From Caulobacteraceae bacterium (lineage in GTDB: Bacteria > Pseudomonadota > Alphaproteobacteria > Caulobacterales > Aquidulcibacteraceae), in assembly GCA_009773335.1 (NCBI GenBank), contig WRPF01000001.1:62001-126000 (forward strand): 64,000 nucleotides of DNA, written 5' to 3'. Within the stretch, counting starts at the first letter, position 1, and every line of letters begins with the position of its first letter. The translations under genes and the position numbers were made by a program. Below are positions 55,612 to 61,313 of the stretch, piece by piece. The notes under the pieces were generated by a model that made no database searches, was not told the DNA's origin, and saw only the letters and a list, made by a program, of their open reading frames with translations.

Positions 55612-56265
55612 TCACCGGCTTTCGGAGACCACAGCGCCGGCAAACCCGCGTTCCACGATCATGTCGCACGCGAGTTCCGCCGCCGCACGGGTGGGCCACT
55701 GACCCAGCCGGACACGATGCAGGGTGACGGAGGCGCCGGGCCGCTGGTCGATTGTAACGGACCCGACGTCCTGCAGCGCCGCCCGGGCGCGCTCGGCATT
55801 GGCGGGGTTGGCGAAGGCGCCGACCTGGACGAAGTAGCCGCCACCCGCCGGGGGCGTCTCCACGTCCGCGGGCGATGGCGCTTCTTCCGGCCGGTCTGGT
55901 TCGGCGCCGGATGTCACAGGGGGGGCCACGGTCGGGGCGATCTCGTCAAACGCATCGTCCGCCAGGGACGCCGGGTCCGCCGGCCCGCGCAGCGTTCCGC
56001 GGAGGTCGAGCGGCGCTCGCCCGGATCGCTGGAAGGCATGTCCGTAGCCGTACAGGATGTCCGGCTGGTCCATGGCCGCCGCCGCCGGTCGACGCGCCGG
56101 AGAAGCCGTTGCGACAGCGACCTGTGGGCGCGCCGGCTCGAGAGCCTCGGGTCGGGCGGAGCGCGTGGCGTATTCGATCGGCGCCCGGTCCCGCGCGCTG
56201 GCCGCCTCCGGCGCCGTCGCCGCCGCGAGGAGGAGCAGCGCGAGCGACTTCACAACAGACGGCAT
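55612..56265 (-). CDS. SPOR-domain secreted protein
   Basis: Signal peptide; C-terminal GGYFVQVGAFANPANAERARAALQDVGSVTI SPOR motif. Confidence 0.82.
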   Translation of the reverse strand: MPSVVKSLALLLLAAATAPEAASARDRAPIEYATRSARPEALEPARPQVAVATASPARRPAAAAMDQPDILYGYGHAFQRSGRAPLDLRGTLRGPADPASLADDAFDEIAPTVAPPVTSGAEPDRPEEAPSPADVETPPAGGGYFVQVGAFANPANAERARAALQDVGSVTIDQRPGASVTLHRVRLGQWPTRAAAELACDMIVERGFAGAVVSESR

Positions 56266-56366
56266 TCCGGTCTCCACATGGGCGGTTGATCCCACATCTA
56301 CCGGACGCCGATTGAGGTCACGTAAGTTTTTGCGGTTTATTCATTTTCACCACGTCCGGACAAACC

Positions 56367-56398
56367 GCGTCCATGGCGGCCGCCGCCGCCATGGACGC
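56367..56398. terminator. Strong stem-loop at the 3' end of the four-gene cassette
   Basis: Perfect 14-bp inverted repeat gcgtccatggcggc/gccgccatggacgc with 4-nt loop, 8 bp beyond the SNase-fusion stop; only a weak T-tract follows on the minus strand. Confidence 0.5.
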
Positions 56399-56406
56399 AA
56401 CCCGCG

Positions 56407-57435
56407 CTAGTCGGGAGCTCTGACCACCGGCGTCGAGCCCTGTTTCGGCCGGCGCGTGACGACGCGCGGCGGAGCACACGTTCCCATCATCGGCGTGCCG
56501 ACGGGGTAGTCGCCCTTGTCGCGGAAAGCCGCCTTCTTCGCCTGTGTGAATTGCGCCCACGCATCCGGCCGCACGGCGCACCACGCCGACAGCCCGCGCG
56601 CGCGCGCGGTCGCTTCTGCAGCTTCGGCTGCAAACGCGCCGTCGATGCCGACGGCATACCCCTCTTCGACCAGTCGCCGCGCGACATTGAACTCCTCGCC
56701 GCCACTCTTGACGGCGGTGCAGGTTGCGATCCGCTCACGACGCGCAGTGTCGGCGGCGTCCTTCGGGCGATCGAGGGCGCACATCACGTATGCGCCGTCC
56801 AGAATTCGGCGCAGCGCGCGTTGGGACTCCTCGCTGCAATCCAGCACGCGCGTCCCGAGGCGGCATATCTGGCCGGGCTCAGGCGCATCAATGCCACGCA
56901 GGCGCAAGAGGTCGCCGTTCAGGAGCAGGGTCTCTGCGGTATGCACCGTCTCGAGGCTGGCGGCGCCGGCGTAGGCCTGACGTTCCTCCCGCTGGCCGAA
57001 TCCTGTGCCGACCATGGCCAGCGCAAATACGCCGCCGAGAATTGCGCCGATCATGCCCATCATCACAGGCCGGATGGCGTTTTCGAGCTCCTCGCCGGGA
57101 CGGAAGGCCACAAGCGCGAGTACGCCAACCAGAACCGCAAAGAACAGGAAAATGTCGAACAGGGACAAGATCATTCGAGCAACGGTCGCCCCGTTGCTCT
57201 CCAGCATGCGCAACAGCATGCTTTCGCCCGGCCTGTTCCACTTCGCCGCGAGGTCGCCCAGCGCCGTTGCGAGTTCGGGATCGCGTTCGCTGCTGCCGAG
57301 CAACAGCCACGCGACCACCAGAAGAAGCAGGCCGCCGGCCCAGACCGCCCCCCTCATCCAGATCGCCCACTGGCGTGTGCTGACAATGAACAGCACCAGA
57401 GCGCTAATGAGCAGAATAAACGCCAACATAGCCAT
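56407..57435 (-). CDS. Multi-TM protein fused to thermonuclease (SNase)-like domain
   Basis: Several hydrophobic N-terminal segments, then LLRLRGIDAPE ... CSEESQRALRRILDG ... RRERIATC ... ARRLVEEGYAVG typical of SNase-like domains. Confidence 0.75.
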   Translation of the reverse strand: MAMLAFILLISALVLFIVSTRQWAIWMRGAVWAGGLLLLVVAWLLLGSSERDPELATALGDLAAKWNRPGESMLLRMLESNGATVARMILSLFDIFLFFAVLVGVLALVAFRPGEELENAIRPVMMGMIGAILGGVFALAMVGTGFGQREERQAYAGAASLETVHTAETLLLNGDLLRLRGIDAPEPGQICRLGTRVLDCSEESQRALRRILDGAYVMCALDRPKDAADTARRERIATCTAVKSGGEEFNVARRLVEEGYAVGIDGAFAAEAAEATARARGLSAWCAVRPDAWAQFTQAKKAAFRDKGDYPVGTPMMGTCAPPRVVTRRPKQGSTPVVRAPD

Positions 57436-57521
57436 AACCGATCCCTCTCCAACCGAGGCAAGCGCGAGACTTGCCGTATTCGCTTCCCGTTCCGTGCCGA
57501 CGCCCCCGCGTCAGGCGTCAA

Positions 57522-57962
57522 TCAGTTAGGCGCATTCACAACAGGCATGGTGCGTGGGGGCGCAGATCCGCTCCCGCCTTGCGTCACGCCCTGATTGCGC
57601 CGGCGTGCGATGTCGATCTCCTCCAGCAAGCGCGGCCGAGCCGGGGGCTGCGGCACCGCATCCGCCGTCCGGACACGCCTGTAGGCCTCTATCTGTCGCG
57701 CCAACTCCCGCCTGTAGGCGACGACGGCATAGGCGTCGGGGCCGGGTTCCTGACGCATTGCCTCCAGGCGCGCCTCCGCCTGGAACATCTGATTGAGTGC
57801 GACGCCGCTCCCCATCGCGGCGCCGATGAGCAGGCCAACCACCCAGAGCCGCGACACGATGCGGCCGAGCTGGCCAATCCACTGGACCAGGTTACGCGGC
57901 TCCGGATCGGGCGGAACCACATGCATTTCAGCGACAGGAGGCGGTTCTTCGGTGCTGGTCAT
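57522..57962 (-). CDS. Hypothetical single-TM protein
   Basis: 146 aa; Pro/Glu-rich N-terminus, one TM (LWVVGLLIGAAMGSGVAL), coiled-coil-like C-terminal part. Confidence 0.6.
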   Translation of the reverse strand: MTSTEEPPPVAEMHVVPPDPEPRNLVQWIGQLGRIVSRLWVVGLLIGAAMGSGVALNQMFQAEARLEAMRQEPGPDAYAVVAYRRELARQIEAYRRVRTADAVPQPPARPRLLEEIDIARRRNQGVTQGGSGSAPPRTMPVVNAPN

Positions 57963-57967
57963 CGCCC

Positions 57968-58711
57968 CTAGGTCGCCTTGTCGACAAAATCGCCTGGCCG
58001 CACCTTATCCGGATTGCACCACGCTTCGCCATTTTTTTCCGAGCATACCGTTGCTTGTGCGCTTGGCGTGCAACGCAACGCTGGATCGCTGTCGGTCTTC
58101 TTGCGGGACGCTTCGTCGCTGCGCTGACGCAGGAGACCCTGCACTTCGCCATCCAGCCGCGCCGCCTCGGCCGGATCCGGCGTCAGCGCCCGTCGGCGTC
58201 GCAATTCCGCGAGGCGCGCTTCTATCTGTCCAATTCGGCGCTCGTAGATGCCTTCCCTGATGCTCAGGCACATGTCGTCCCACTCCCGGCGCAACTGGTC
58301 GATCCCGCCGGGATCGTTCAGGAGTGGATGTGTCGACCGGGTCCTGCGCTGATCGAGATTGTCCGAGCGCACACGATCGAGAAACGCCACGAGACCCTCG
58401 GCGCGCGCGTTGATCTGGGCCCGCTCCTCGATCTGCTTTGCGAGTCCAAGCGGGCGCCCCTCCGGGTAGATCACCGAAGCTTGTTCACGGTCGTGTGCAG
58501 GATTCAGAACCCGCCAATAGCAGAATCCGACGACGCCAAGACACAGGCTAAGTAGCGCGAGCCACGACAGAAGTCCGAGCGAATTGCCTGCTACGGCATC
58601 CTGCTGGTTCGGCGGATAGCCCTGGTAGATGATGATCGGACGATCGCTCTCGCGAATGATGTCCGGAAGCCCGCCGGGTCTTTTGACAGGTCCAACCATG
58701 GGCAGACTCAC
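57968..58711 (-). CDS. Hypothetical single-TM coiled-coil protein with Cys-rich tail
   Basis: 247 aa; TM LGLLSWLALLSLCLGVVGFCYW; charged helical region; CTPSAQATVCSEKNGEAWCNPDKVRPGDFV tail. Confidence 0.65.
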   Translation of the reverse strand: MSLPMVGPVKRPGGLPDIIRESDRPIIIYQGYPPNQQDAVAGNSLGLLSWLALLSLCLGVVGFCYWRVLNPAHDREQASVIYPEGRPLGLAKQIEERAQINARAEGLVAFLDRVRSDNLDQRRTRSTHPLLNDPGGIDQLRREWDDMCLSIREGIYERRIGQIEARLAELRRRRALTPDPAEAARLDGEVQGLLRQRSDEASRKKTDSDPALRCTPSAQATVCSEKNGEAWCNPDKVRPGDFVDKAT

Positions 58712-58721
58712 TCAACGCCGA

Positions 58722-61010
58722 TTAGCTCGGACGCCCCCCGCACTGCAGCGGAATGCCGGACAGACGATAGTATTCCTTCACCTCCGGCGCGGTTTGCTCG
58801 CCGTCGTTGTAGTTGATGCCCCTGCAGGCAAGCACGTAGCGTTGCCCGTAGGACAGCAGGCCCCCGAGATCGATCGTGGGCGGCAGGCCGGAATGACCGG
58901 ACTCCACGACCTGTCCCAGCATCTTTGCCGACACCCCTCGGTTGAACGCCTGGATGGAGCGTGACCAGCTTCTCAGCCGTTCGTCCGTGCGCGCCTCGCG
59001 CTGACCGCGACGCAACCAGTACATGCCCTCGTACAGAAGGGTTTCCGCACGTTCCTCGCCCTGTCCTGCGGCTGCGCAGAACCCTTGCTCGGCGGTCTGT
59101 CCGAACAGGATCTGCGCCTGGCAGGCCTGACGGCGGAACTGCGGTCGTTGCGCCAGGCTAAAGGCCTGCGCGGCCTGGTTCACGGCCAGTTCGCCGTCGC
59201 GCAGGAAGCTCCGATCGGTGGTGGAGCGCGCGCGGTCCGGCGTGACGGCGAGGGCGTGCTGCTGAGCCAGGGTAAGACGGCGGCTCGCGAGATACAGGCC
59301 CTCGGCGTTGCCTTCGACGCTGCCACTGTGGCGCCGTGCGAAGTACTGCAGCACCTGCTCCGCCTTCGGATAGGGCGGGCGGTCGATCAGCGGTCCGAGG
59401 GAAGGCTCGGAGCCCAGCCGCAGGTAGATGTGTCCGAGCGTGAGGCGCGCTTCCACGTTCTCATAGTTGAGAAAGATAGCGCACCTCAGGTCCGCTTCCG
59501 ATTCACGCAGGCTCGCCGGACGGGCCGCCGCGACCTCTGAGATCGTGCGGTAGTACAGATCGCCGCCGCCGGCGCCCACCAGCGGGTCGTTCTCGCGCGG
59601 AACGCCGGTGTTGGCGTATCGCGTGCGCGCAACCTCGACATAGATGCGCGACGCAAGCGCATCGCGATTTGCTGGCGGAAACTCCACATCGCCGCTCGGG
59701 CAGCGGGTGGTTGCTCCCGACAGGTCGAGCGCCTGCTTGAAGTTGGCGCGCGCGCTGTCGAGTTGGCCCTGCATCACGTGCGCGCGCGCGAGCGTGAGCA
59801 TGGTCAGCGGGCGGCGCGGCGCCAGTTTCAGCTGTTCGATCGCCTGCGCGATCTGACGTTGCCGTTCGCCCGGTTCGGATACGTTCGGGAGGTTGGCGAG
59901 GATCGTGCAGCCCAGTCCCCACCTTGCGTCTGCCGAGGACCCCGCCGACGCGGACGAGCGGCGTGTGTAGGCGTCGAAAGCGTAGCGCGCATACTGGAAG
60001 TGTTGCGCGGCGTCGGGCGCGAGCTGGCTGCCGACGCAATCAAGTGCGCCGACGCCGCTGATGCCCTGTGCTCCGGCGAGGGCCGAAAATCCGGGACTTT
60101 CCTGCAGGCCGGCGGCCTTCAGGTGTGCGATGCCGATCTGGAAGAACACATCCAGCAACTGTTCGCGGGTGGGGGCGGGCCGGCCCTCGAGCGCGCCGAT
60201 CGGATCGGTCGCGCCGATGCCCGTAGCGCAATCGATCGGCGCCGGATCCGGGCAGGCGGCGTCGATCGCTGCGGCGGCCGGTCCGAGGAAATCGATCGCC
60301 CGTTGCGCGTCGCTGCGCCGTTGTTCCCCATCCCTGCCCTGCGCGCGCAGCGCGTTCTGGCCGAGCGACTGGCCGAGTCGGAAGAGCCAGGACCGCCCGC
60401 GCGAAATCTCAGCGGGGGTCATGAGGCTCAGCACGCCGGGTCCGCCGCCGAGGCGAGCGCCGTCCTGGGCGAAGACGATCTTGAGGGCGCCGAACGCGCT
60501 CTCCTCGCCTGCGGGTCCGAGTTCGGCCAGACTCAACAGCGCGCGCTGGTACGCAACGCCGGGGTCGCTAGGACTCAGGGACGGGCTGGCCAGAAGGACG
60601 CGCGCCGCCTCGACCCGGCCCTTGGTCAGATAGGCCTGCACGAGTTCCAGCTGACCGGCGCGCAGCTCAGCCCGGAAAACCGGCTCAAAATCCTGCCCGG
60701 TGTTGACCGCCGCCTCGAGTTGGCGAATGGCGTCGTCGGGCCGTCCAGCGCGGGAAAAGGCGCGCCCGGAGTAAAAGCGCGCGCGTGCCGCCTCGACTCC
60801 GCGAGCGGTCGCGCTGACCCTGCGGCAAGTCTCCGCAACCTGCAATTGCAGCGAGGCGTCTGACGGATTCAGCGTCTCCAGCGAACTCTTTCCCAATTCC
60901 CTGATGCAGGCGTCAGTCCGCAGACGCTCCTGCGTCCAGGCATCCCCGGAGAATAACGATACCGTGATAGCCAACCCGGCTCCCACGATCGCAGACAAGG
61001 CCTTGCGCAT
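58722..61010 (-). CDS. Large secreted TPR-like Cys-rich protein
   Basis: 762 aa; signal peptide; ARARFYSGRAFSRAGRPDDAIRQLEAAV and other helical-repeat segments; about 12 Cys. Confidence 0.7.
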   Translation of the reverse strand: MRKALSAIVGAGLAITVSLFSGDAWTQERLRTDACIRELGKSSLETLNPSDASLQLQVAETCRRVSATARGVEAARARFYSGRAFSRAGRPDDAIRQLEAAVNTGQDFEPVFRAELRAGQLELVQAYLTKGRVEAARVLLASPSLSPSDPGVAYQRALLSLAELGPAGEESAFGALKIVFAQDGARLGGGPGVLSLMTPAEISRGRSWLFRLGQSLGQNALRAQGRDGEQRRSDAQRAIDFLGPAAAAIDAACPDPAPIDCATGIGATDPIGALEGRPAPTREQLLDVFFQIGIAHLKAAGLQESPGFSALAGAQGISGVGALDCVGSQLAPDAAQHFQYARYAFDAYTRRSSASAGSSADARWGLGCTILANLPNVSEPGERQRQIAQAIEQLKLAPRRPLTMLTLARAHVMQGQLDSARANFKQALDLSGATTRCPSGDVEFPPANRDALASRIYVEVARTRYANTGVPRENDPLVGAGGGDLYYRTISEVAAARPASLRESEADLRCAIFLNYENVEARLTLGHIYLRLGSEPSLGPLIDRPPYPKAEQVLQYFARRHSGSVEGNAEGLYLASRRLTLAQQHALAVTPDRARSTTDRSFLRDGELAVNQAAQAFSLAQRPQFRRQACQAQILFGQTAEQGFCAAAGQGEERAETLLYEGMYWLRRGQREARTDERLRSWSRSIQAFNRGVSAKMLGQVVESGHSGLPPTIDLGGLLSYGQRYVLACRGINYNDGEQTAPEVKEYYRLSGIPLQCGGRPS

Positions 61011-61223
61011 GCCATCCCCTCAATGCTGACGCGTAAGCACGCCCCTAGCCCCTCAATTTGTTAATGTTTATTACTTTCCGGGCGTCGGGTAAAGGCGGCG
61101 TGAGCGGGGCGGGCGCCAGACTCGTCAGATCGTCCGTCATCGCGGCTGGGGTTCTGCGCGGAGATGTCCACAGAGGGGTTGGCGACGTTTCCTGCGGTGA
61201 ATGACCCCGTGTTTCATGCCGCG

Positions 61224-61313
61224 TGGCGGATGGGGTGGGATTCGAACCCACGGTAAGCTTGCGCCTACGCCAGTTTTCAAGACTGGAGCCTTCAACCGCT
61301 CGGCCACCCATCC
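61224..61313 (-). tRNA. tRNA-Ser (anticodon UGA), CCA encoded
   Basis: Reverse complement GGATGGGTGGCCGAGCGGTTGAAGGC..CTTGAAAA..GGGTTCGAATCCCACCCCATCCGCCA; long variable arm; anticodon TGA. Confidence 0.95.

Follow-up and report, generated by a model that had tools for sequence, protein, structure and literature searches.

The SNase fold is known from staphylococcal nuclease/thermonuclease (PF00565), whose catalytic set includes D19, D21 and D40, and from Tudor-SN (SND1), a eukaryotic, cytoplasmic protein without transmembrane (TM) segments, in which SN-like domains with a degenerate catalytic site are fused to Tudor. Roles in SNase catalysis have been described for R35, E43 and R87 (PMC8436206). 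A periplasmic TPR solenoid is found in the flagellar-motor scaffold of Campylobacter jejuni (PDB 9hmf), and exported TPR and coiled-coil envelope proteins are found in the Tol-Pal system (CpoB/YbgF). The four-gene cassette reported here lies in a 64,000-nucleotide stretch of a Caulobacteraceae contig (hereafter the window, whose numbering is used throughout) and resembles each of these in part. Gene 4 shares the SNase fold and a GIDAPE motif with staphylococcal nuclease, but it carries four N-terminal TM segments and six conserved Cys, its DGDT metal-site motif is changed in the window and its score lies under the family cut-off; the fold with a degenerate catalytic site is what it shares with SND1. 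Gene 1 is like the C. jejuni scaffold only as a generic solenoid (TM-score ~0.2). Its match to CpoB/YbgF is weak (NCBIfam TIGR02795, 18.8 bits against a cut-off of 90.1), and the four genes include neither TolA/Q/R/B nor Pal. The preliminary description of this DNA had not recognised the combination, and the set likewise matched no system in the family libraries searched (Pfam, NCBIfam and PADLOC); nor did the literature, searched for an envelope system combining TPR with SNase or TerB with TPR, yield anything relevant. The four genes are a real envelope gene set that matches no described system.

The cassette consists of four consecutive minus-strand ORFs of 762, 247, 146 and 342 aa, separated by 10, 5 and 86 bp in transcription order, which confirms the coordinates, strand and short gaps given previously. 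All four products were predicted to be exported or membrane-anchored and the hydropathy profiles agree, with a signal-like N-terminal segment in gene 1, one TM segment each in genes 2 and 3, and four in gene 4. The Cys richness proposed for the exported portions was overstated and holds only in part: genes 1 to 4 contain 12/762, 6/247, 0/146 and 6/342 Cys (the yardstick being local ORFs, median 1.19%, 95th percentile 2.18%). A tRNA-Ser(TGA) gene (61224..61313, minus strand) lies just upstream of the cassette. At the other end, 3' of gene 4, the hairpin taken as its boundary (56367..56398; 14-bp stem, 4-nt loop) is real, with a fold z of -4.2, but it received no terminator call and, lacking a T run, is not a canonical intrinsic terminator.

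Gene 1 (58722..61010, minus strand) encodes a secreted TPR-solenoid protein of 762 aa with 12 Cys and a conserved C-terminal region. The TPR-like fold suggested earlier is borne out by TPR repeats (Pfam TPR_19, E 1.1e-8) and by an almost all-alpha AF2 model (mean pLDDT 76.5), whose Foldseek matches were TPR solenoids. Identity to its counterpart in G001, a genome of the same genus, is 78%, and a lipobox is present in some distant members of the family. Gene 2 (57968..58699, minus strand) encodes a bitopic protein with the N-terminal motif RPIIIYQGxPP, one TM segment, a charged helical region and a Cys tail. Its likeliest start is ATG 58699 (243 aa) and not GTG 58711, because Met5 of the longer product is the invariant first residue in its homologues. 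Gene 3 (57522..57962, minus strand) encodes a bitopic protein of 146 aa with one TM segment and the conserved tail PPxRPxLLEEIDxARxRN, which could be aligned over 6 members. No Pfam or NCBIfam family matched gene 2; gene 3 had no Pfam family above cut-off and no NCBIfam match.

Gene 4 (56407..57435, minus strand) encodes four TM segments followed by an SNase-fold domain (residues ~153-320), which is predicted to face the periplasm because the TM segments are joined by short, Arg-bearing loops. The window protein scored 12.9 bits against PF00565, under the gathering threshold of 21 bits; among its orthologues, those of G071 (22.6) and G067 (23.8) passed and that of G072 (20.2) failed. A PDB sequence search with the gene 4 profile found nothing. 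The SNase-like fold noted before was nevertheless upheld by structure prediction: AF2 confidence was mostly ~90 pLDDT over the domain and low over the TM region, and the sole confident Foldseek matches of the domain were to the SNase fold of SND1 (probability 1.00, E 5.8e-4 to 4e-3). Six Cys are kept across nearly all gene 4 relatives. Active-site positions were read from alignment to motif-intact relatives and are given in SNase numbering. The window protein (HTAET...GIDAPE) has D19T and D21E, giving TAET in place of DGDT, and keeps R35, D40 and E43; R87 is ambiguous (RERIATC). The motif reads HTAEQ in G001 and YSGDT in G071, G082 combines HDGDT with NAPQ (D40N/E43Q), and G072 has GIDAPH (E43H). 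Catalytic residues are thus changed in 4/4 members with an intact cassette, though not in the same way, and the losses are erratic. The SNase domain nonetheless evolves under purifying selection between the window and G001 (dN/dS 0.16). A second 4TM-SNase gene of the window's own genome (L039:12228-13199, minus strand) has intact DGDT, DAPE and FGR motifs; it converges on a VOC-family-like gene on one side and diverges from leuD on the other. The window's genome also has an ORF with a reverse transcriptase domain (L039:7523-8872, plus strand).

We examined co-occurrence in 60 genomes of the window's family with profiles of genes 1, 2 and 4. The gene 1, gene 2 and gene-4-clade profiles matched the identical 8/60 genomes (hypergeometric 2.5e-6, kinship ignored), and the gene 2 profile (A5) gave one extra weak match in an intermediate locus of G074. 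The homologues do co-occur, and the cassette thus withstood the refuting test set in the preliminary description, but they do not co-occur across Alphaproteobacteria: the quartet was found in one family only, and 386 genomes across the class yielded, besides the window, a single distant TPR match, inside the order. The cassette order is intact in four genomes (the window, G001, G071 and G082). The SNase gene of G067 stands in first place and is still adjacent; that of G072, on a short contig where gene 3 was not identified, is adjacent to and divergent from the TPR gene. Genomes G081 and G083 have the TPR and bitopic genes without a neighbouring SNase and one SNase elsewhere, the G081 contig ending beside the TPR/bitopic genes. 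Another 7 genomes of the family have full-length gene 4 relatives without this TPR type. The SNases of the 8 cassette genomes form one clade (support 95/98), and the cassette-free relatives placed on the tree, as well as the leuD-side copy of the window genome, fall outside it. The groupings ((G000,G001),(G071,G082)) and (G081,G083) appear in both the SNase and the TPR tree, a broad congruence that includes genomes with an unlinked SNase, while the deeper branching order of the SNase tree lacks resolution. Genes 1, 2 and 4 (pairs G000-G001 and G071-G082) and gene 3 (G071-G082 and G000-G071 only) are under purifying selection (NG86 dN/dS 0.14-0.27), with synonymous sites near saturation. Carriers with a name came from scanning genomes for just two peptide patterns; every one is a metagenome-assembled genome, under the label Hyphomonadaceae, Caulobacteraceae, Alphaproteobacteria or Proteobacteria. 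The claim of a discrete co-inherited envelope unit thus stands, with the set in 8 genomes, congruent trees and no library match as a system.

The TPR family extends to a second kind of locus, whose TPR protein is a diverged relative (hhalign probability 100, E 1.4e-49). In G002, G015, G003, G025 and G074 its gene is grouped with those of a bitopic and a TerB-like (PF05099) protein, and a further family within the order shows the same grouping (G183 and G037); G022 and G034 have the TPR gene and one TM gene only. By hhalign, gene 3 resembles the bitopic proteins encoded at TerB-type loci. The bitopic proteins of both locus types have a common Pro-hydrophobic N-terminal motif, as read by eye, and profile similarity between the two kinds is short or weak. 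Beside one TerB/TM/TPR locus, an Hsp70-like protein of 455 aa (L067:2031-3398, plus strand) strongly matched the PADLOC candidate model PDC-M61B (3.3e-56).

These data bear on whether the cassette is an active periplasmic nuclease system, in which gene 4 would degrade or process extracellular nucleic acid and the TPR and coiled-coil proteins would serve as its scaffold. The window retains GIDAPE and R35, G067 retains D19, D21, D40 and E43 (DGDT, DAPE), the unlinked clade members of G081 and G083 have DGDT, DAPE and FGR intact, and ordinary secreted SNases are related by motif; with the motifs kept in these three genomes, the group may retain some activity. We consider such a system unlikely for the cassette, given the substitutions in the window, G082 and G072, which differ even between sister genomes, and the wider TPR + bitopic loci, which have no SNase nearby. 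The earlier proposal that the complex delivers or regulates a nuclease-like domain outside the cytoplasm is therefore unsupported as worded: the domain is predicted to lie in the periplasm, but every intact cassette has changes among the domain's catalytic residues. For these cassettes the sequences are most simply read as pointing to a non-catalytic role, which is not a proof.

The gene neighbourhood raises the alternative of a lineage-specific version of a complex that serves the cell wall or cell division, comparable in kind to Tol-Pal/CpoB or the PBP activators. In the window and G071 the cassette adjoins dacA and RlpA/SPOR genes, G074 has MltA and M23 neighbours, and in G081/G083 the unlinked SNase has an LppC/LpoA-like gene immediately upstream (L118:6664-7905, minus strand; L119:3826-5070, plus strand). 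However, neighbours vary among carriers, the dac-rlpA site exists without the cassette and Pfam found no peptidoglycan-binding domain in the four proteins, and we regard this alternative as improbable. The SPOR-only protein of the window (55612-56295, minus strand) stands where G071 has a full RlpA (DPBB + SPOR) and may be a shortened RlpA.

In 5/~13 loci (window, G071, G082, G083 and G002; Ser-TGA twice, Arg, Pro and Ser-GCT, that of G082 being truncated and read by eye) the TPR gene is found on the 3' side of a tRNA of the same strand, at a distance of ~100-215 bp; a chance estimate for this proximity assumes a rate of 0.7%. The cassette occupies the tRNA-Ser(TGA) site in the window and G071, the tRNA lies directly beside rlpA in the cassette-free G077 and G012, and the site holds two other genes in G001. 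A 409-aa ORF near the G001 cassette was rejected as an integrase, with no Pfam match. Membership of a defence system was also rejected, since PADLOC gave no convincing match for the four proteins (only PDC-M71B, E 0.037, over TPR residues). Cargo of a tRNA-targeting mobile element, such as an accessory or defence island, would bring the genes together by transfer and not by a shared envelope function, and could account for the tRNA positions, the cassette-free sites of relatives and a tyrosine integrase adjoining the same tRNA-Ser(TGA) in G017 (L164:8415-9719, minus strand), but we give it little credence, as no att repeats were found around the window cassette, no integrase was found among its adjoining ORFs, a convincing defence match is lacking and the congruence of the gene trees suggests descent that was mainly vertical.

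Upstream of gene 1, the AT-rich segment previously taken for a likely promoter (~61056-61081) gave no sigma-70 promoter call but does contain a conserved TTAAC-type element (61060..61064, minus strand), similar to a CtrA half-site and located at a distance of 54 nt from the start of gene 1; a TTTACC lies further upstream (61088-61093). TTAAC is present at -32 to -54 in 8/13 TPR loci, four of them with TTAACCAT, against 4/~172 other genes with free upstream sequence in the examined loci (Fisher 2e-8, kinship ignored). In C. crescentus, TTAACCAT serves as the CtrA half-site (PMC3692519), and a full TTAA-N7-TTAAC site is readable upstream of the G183 TPR gene. The element is absent at SNase genes with an upstream region of their own (G067, G072, G081 and G083), so shared control is not general. 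CtrA-linked cell-cycle control of the cassette is possible from these motifs.

Our best explanation, which we hold to be about evenly balanced between right and wrong, is a single co-inherited inner-membrane/periplasm complex whose SNase-fold domain is most likely non-catalytic or nearly so, and whose expression may be tied to CtrA, the Caulobacterales cell-cycle regulator. The TPR protein would form a solenoid scaffold in the periplasm, and genes 2 and 3 would be bitopic coiled-coil adaptors tying it to the membrane, with gene 2 presenting a short cytoplasmic motif. Gene 4 would be a polytopic membrane protein whose SNase-fold domain, probably stabilised by disulfide bonds and lying in the periplasm, acts as a binding or sensing module. 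The short, divergent nature of the gene 2 and gene 3 families counts against this explanation. More tentatively, and less likely than not, the cassette may represent an undescribed cell-cycle-controlled envelope complex of Caulobacterales, in which a TPR scaffold and bitopic adaptors take interchangeable partners: a cytoplasmic TerB-like protein in some lineages, and in others a polytopic protein with a periplasmic SNase-fold pseudo-nuclease as receptor domain.

The co-inherited set brings two protein families (genes 2 and 3) that match no curated family, and a membrane-anchored, predicted periplasmic SNase-fold family, some members of which have lost active-site residues. If the proposed complex is real, it would provide a bacterial example in which a nuclease fold has come to serve binding or sensing, within the order to which the cell-cycle model Caulobacter belongs and with a testable link to CtrA.
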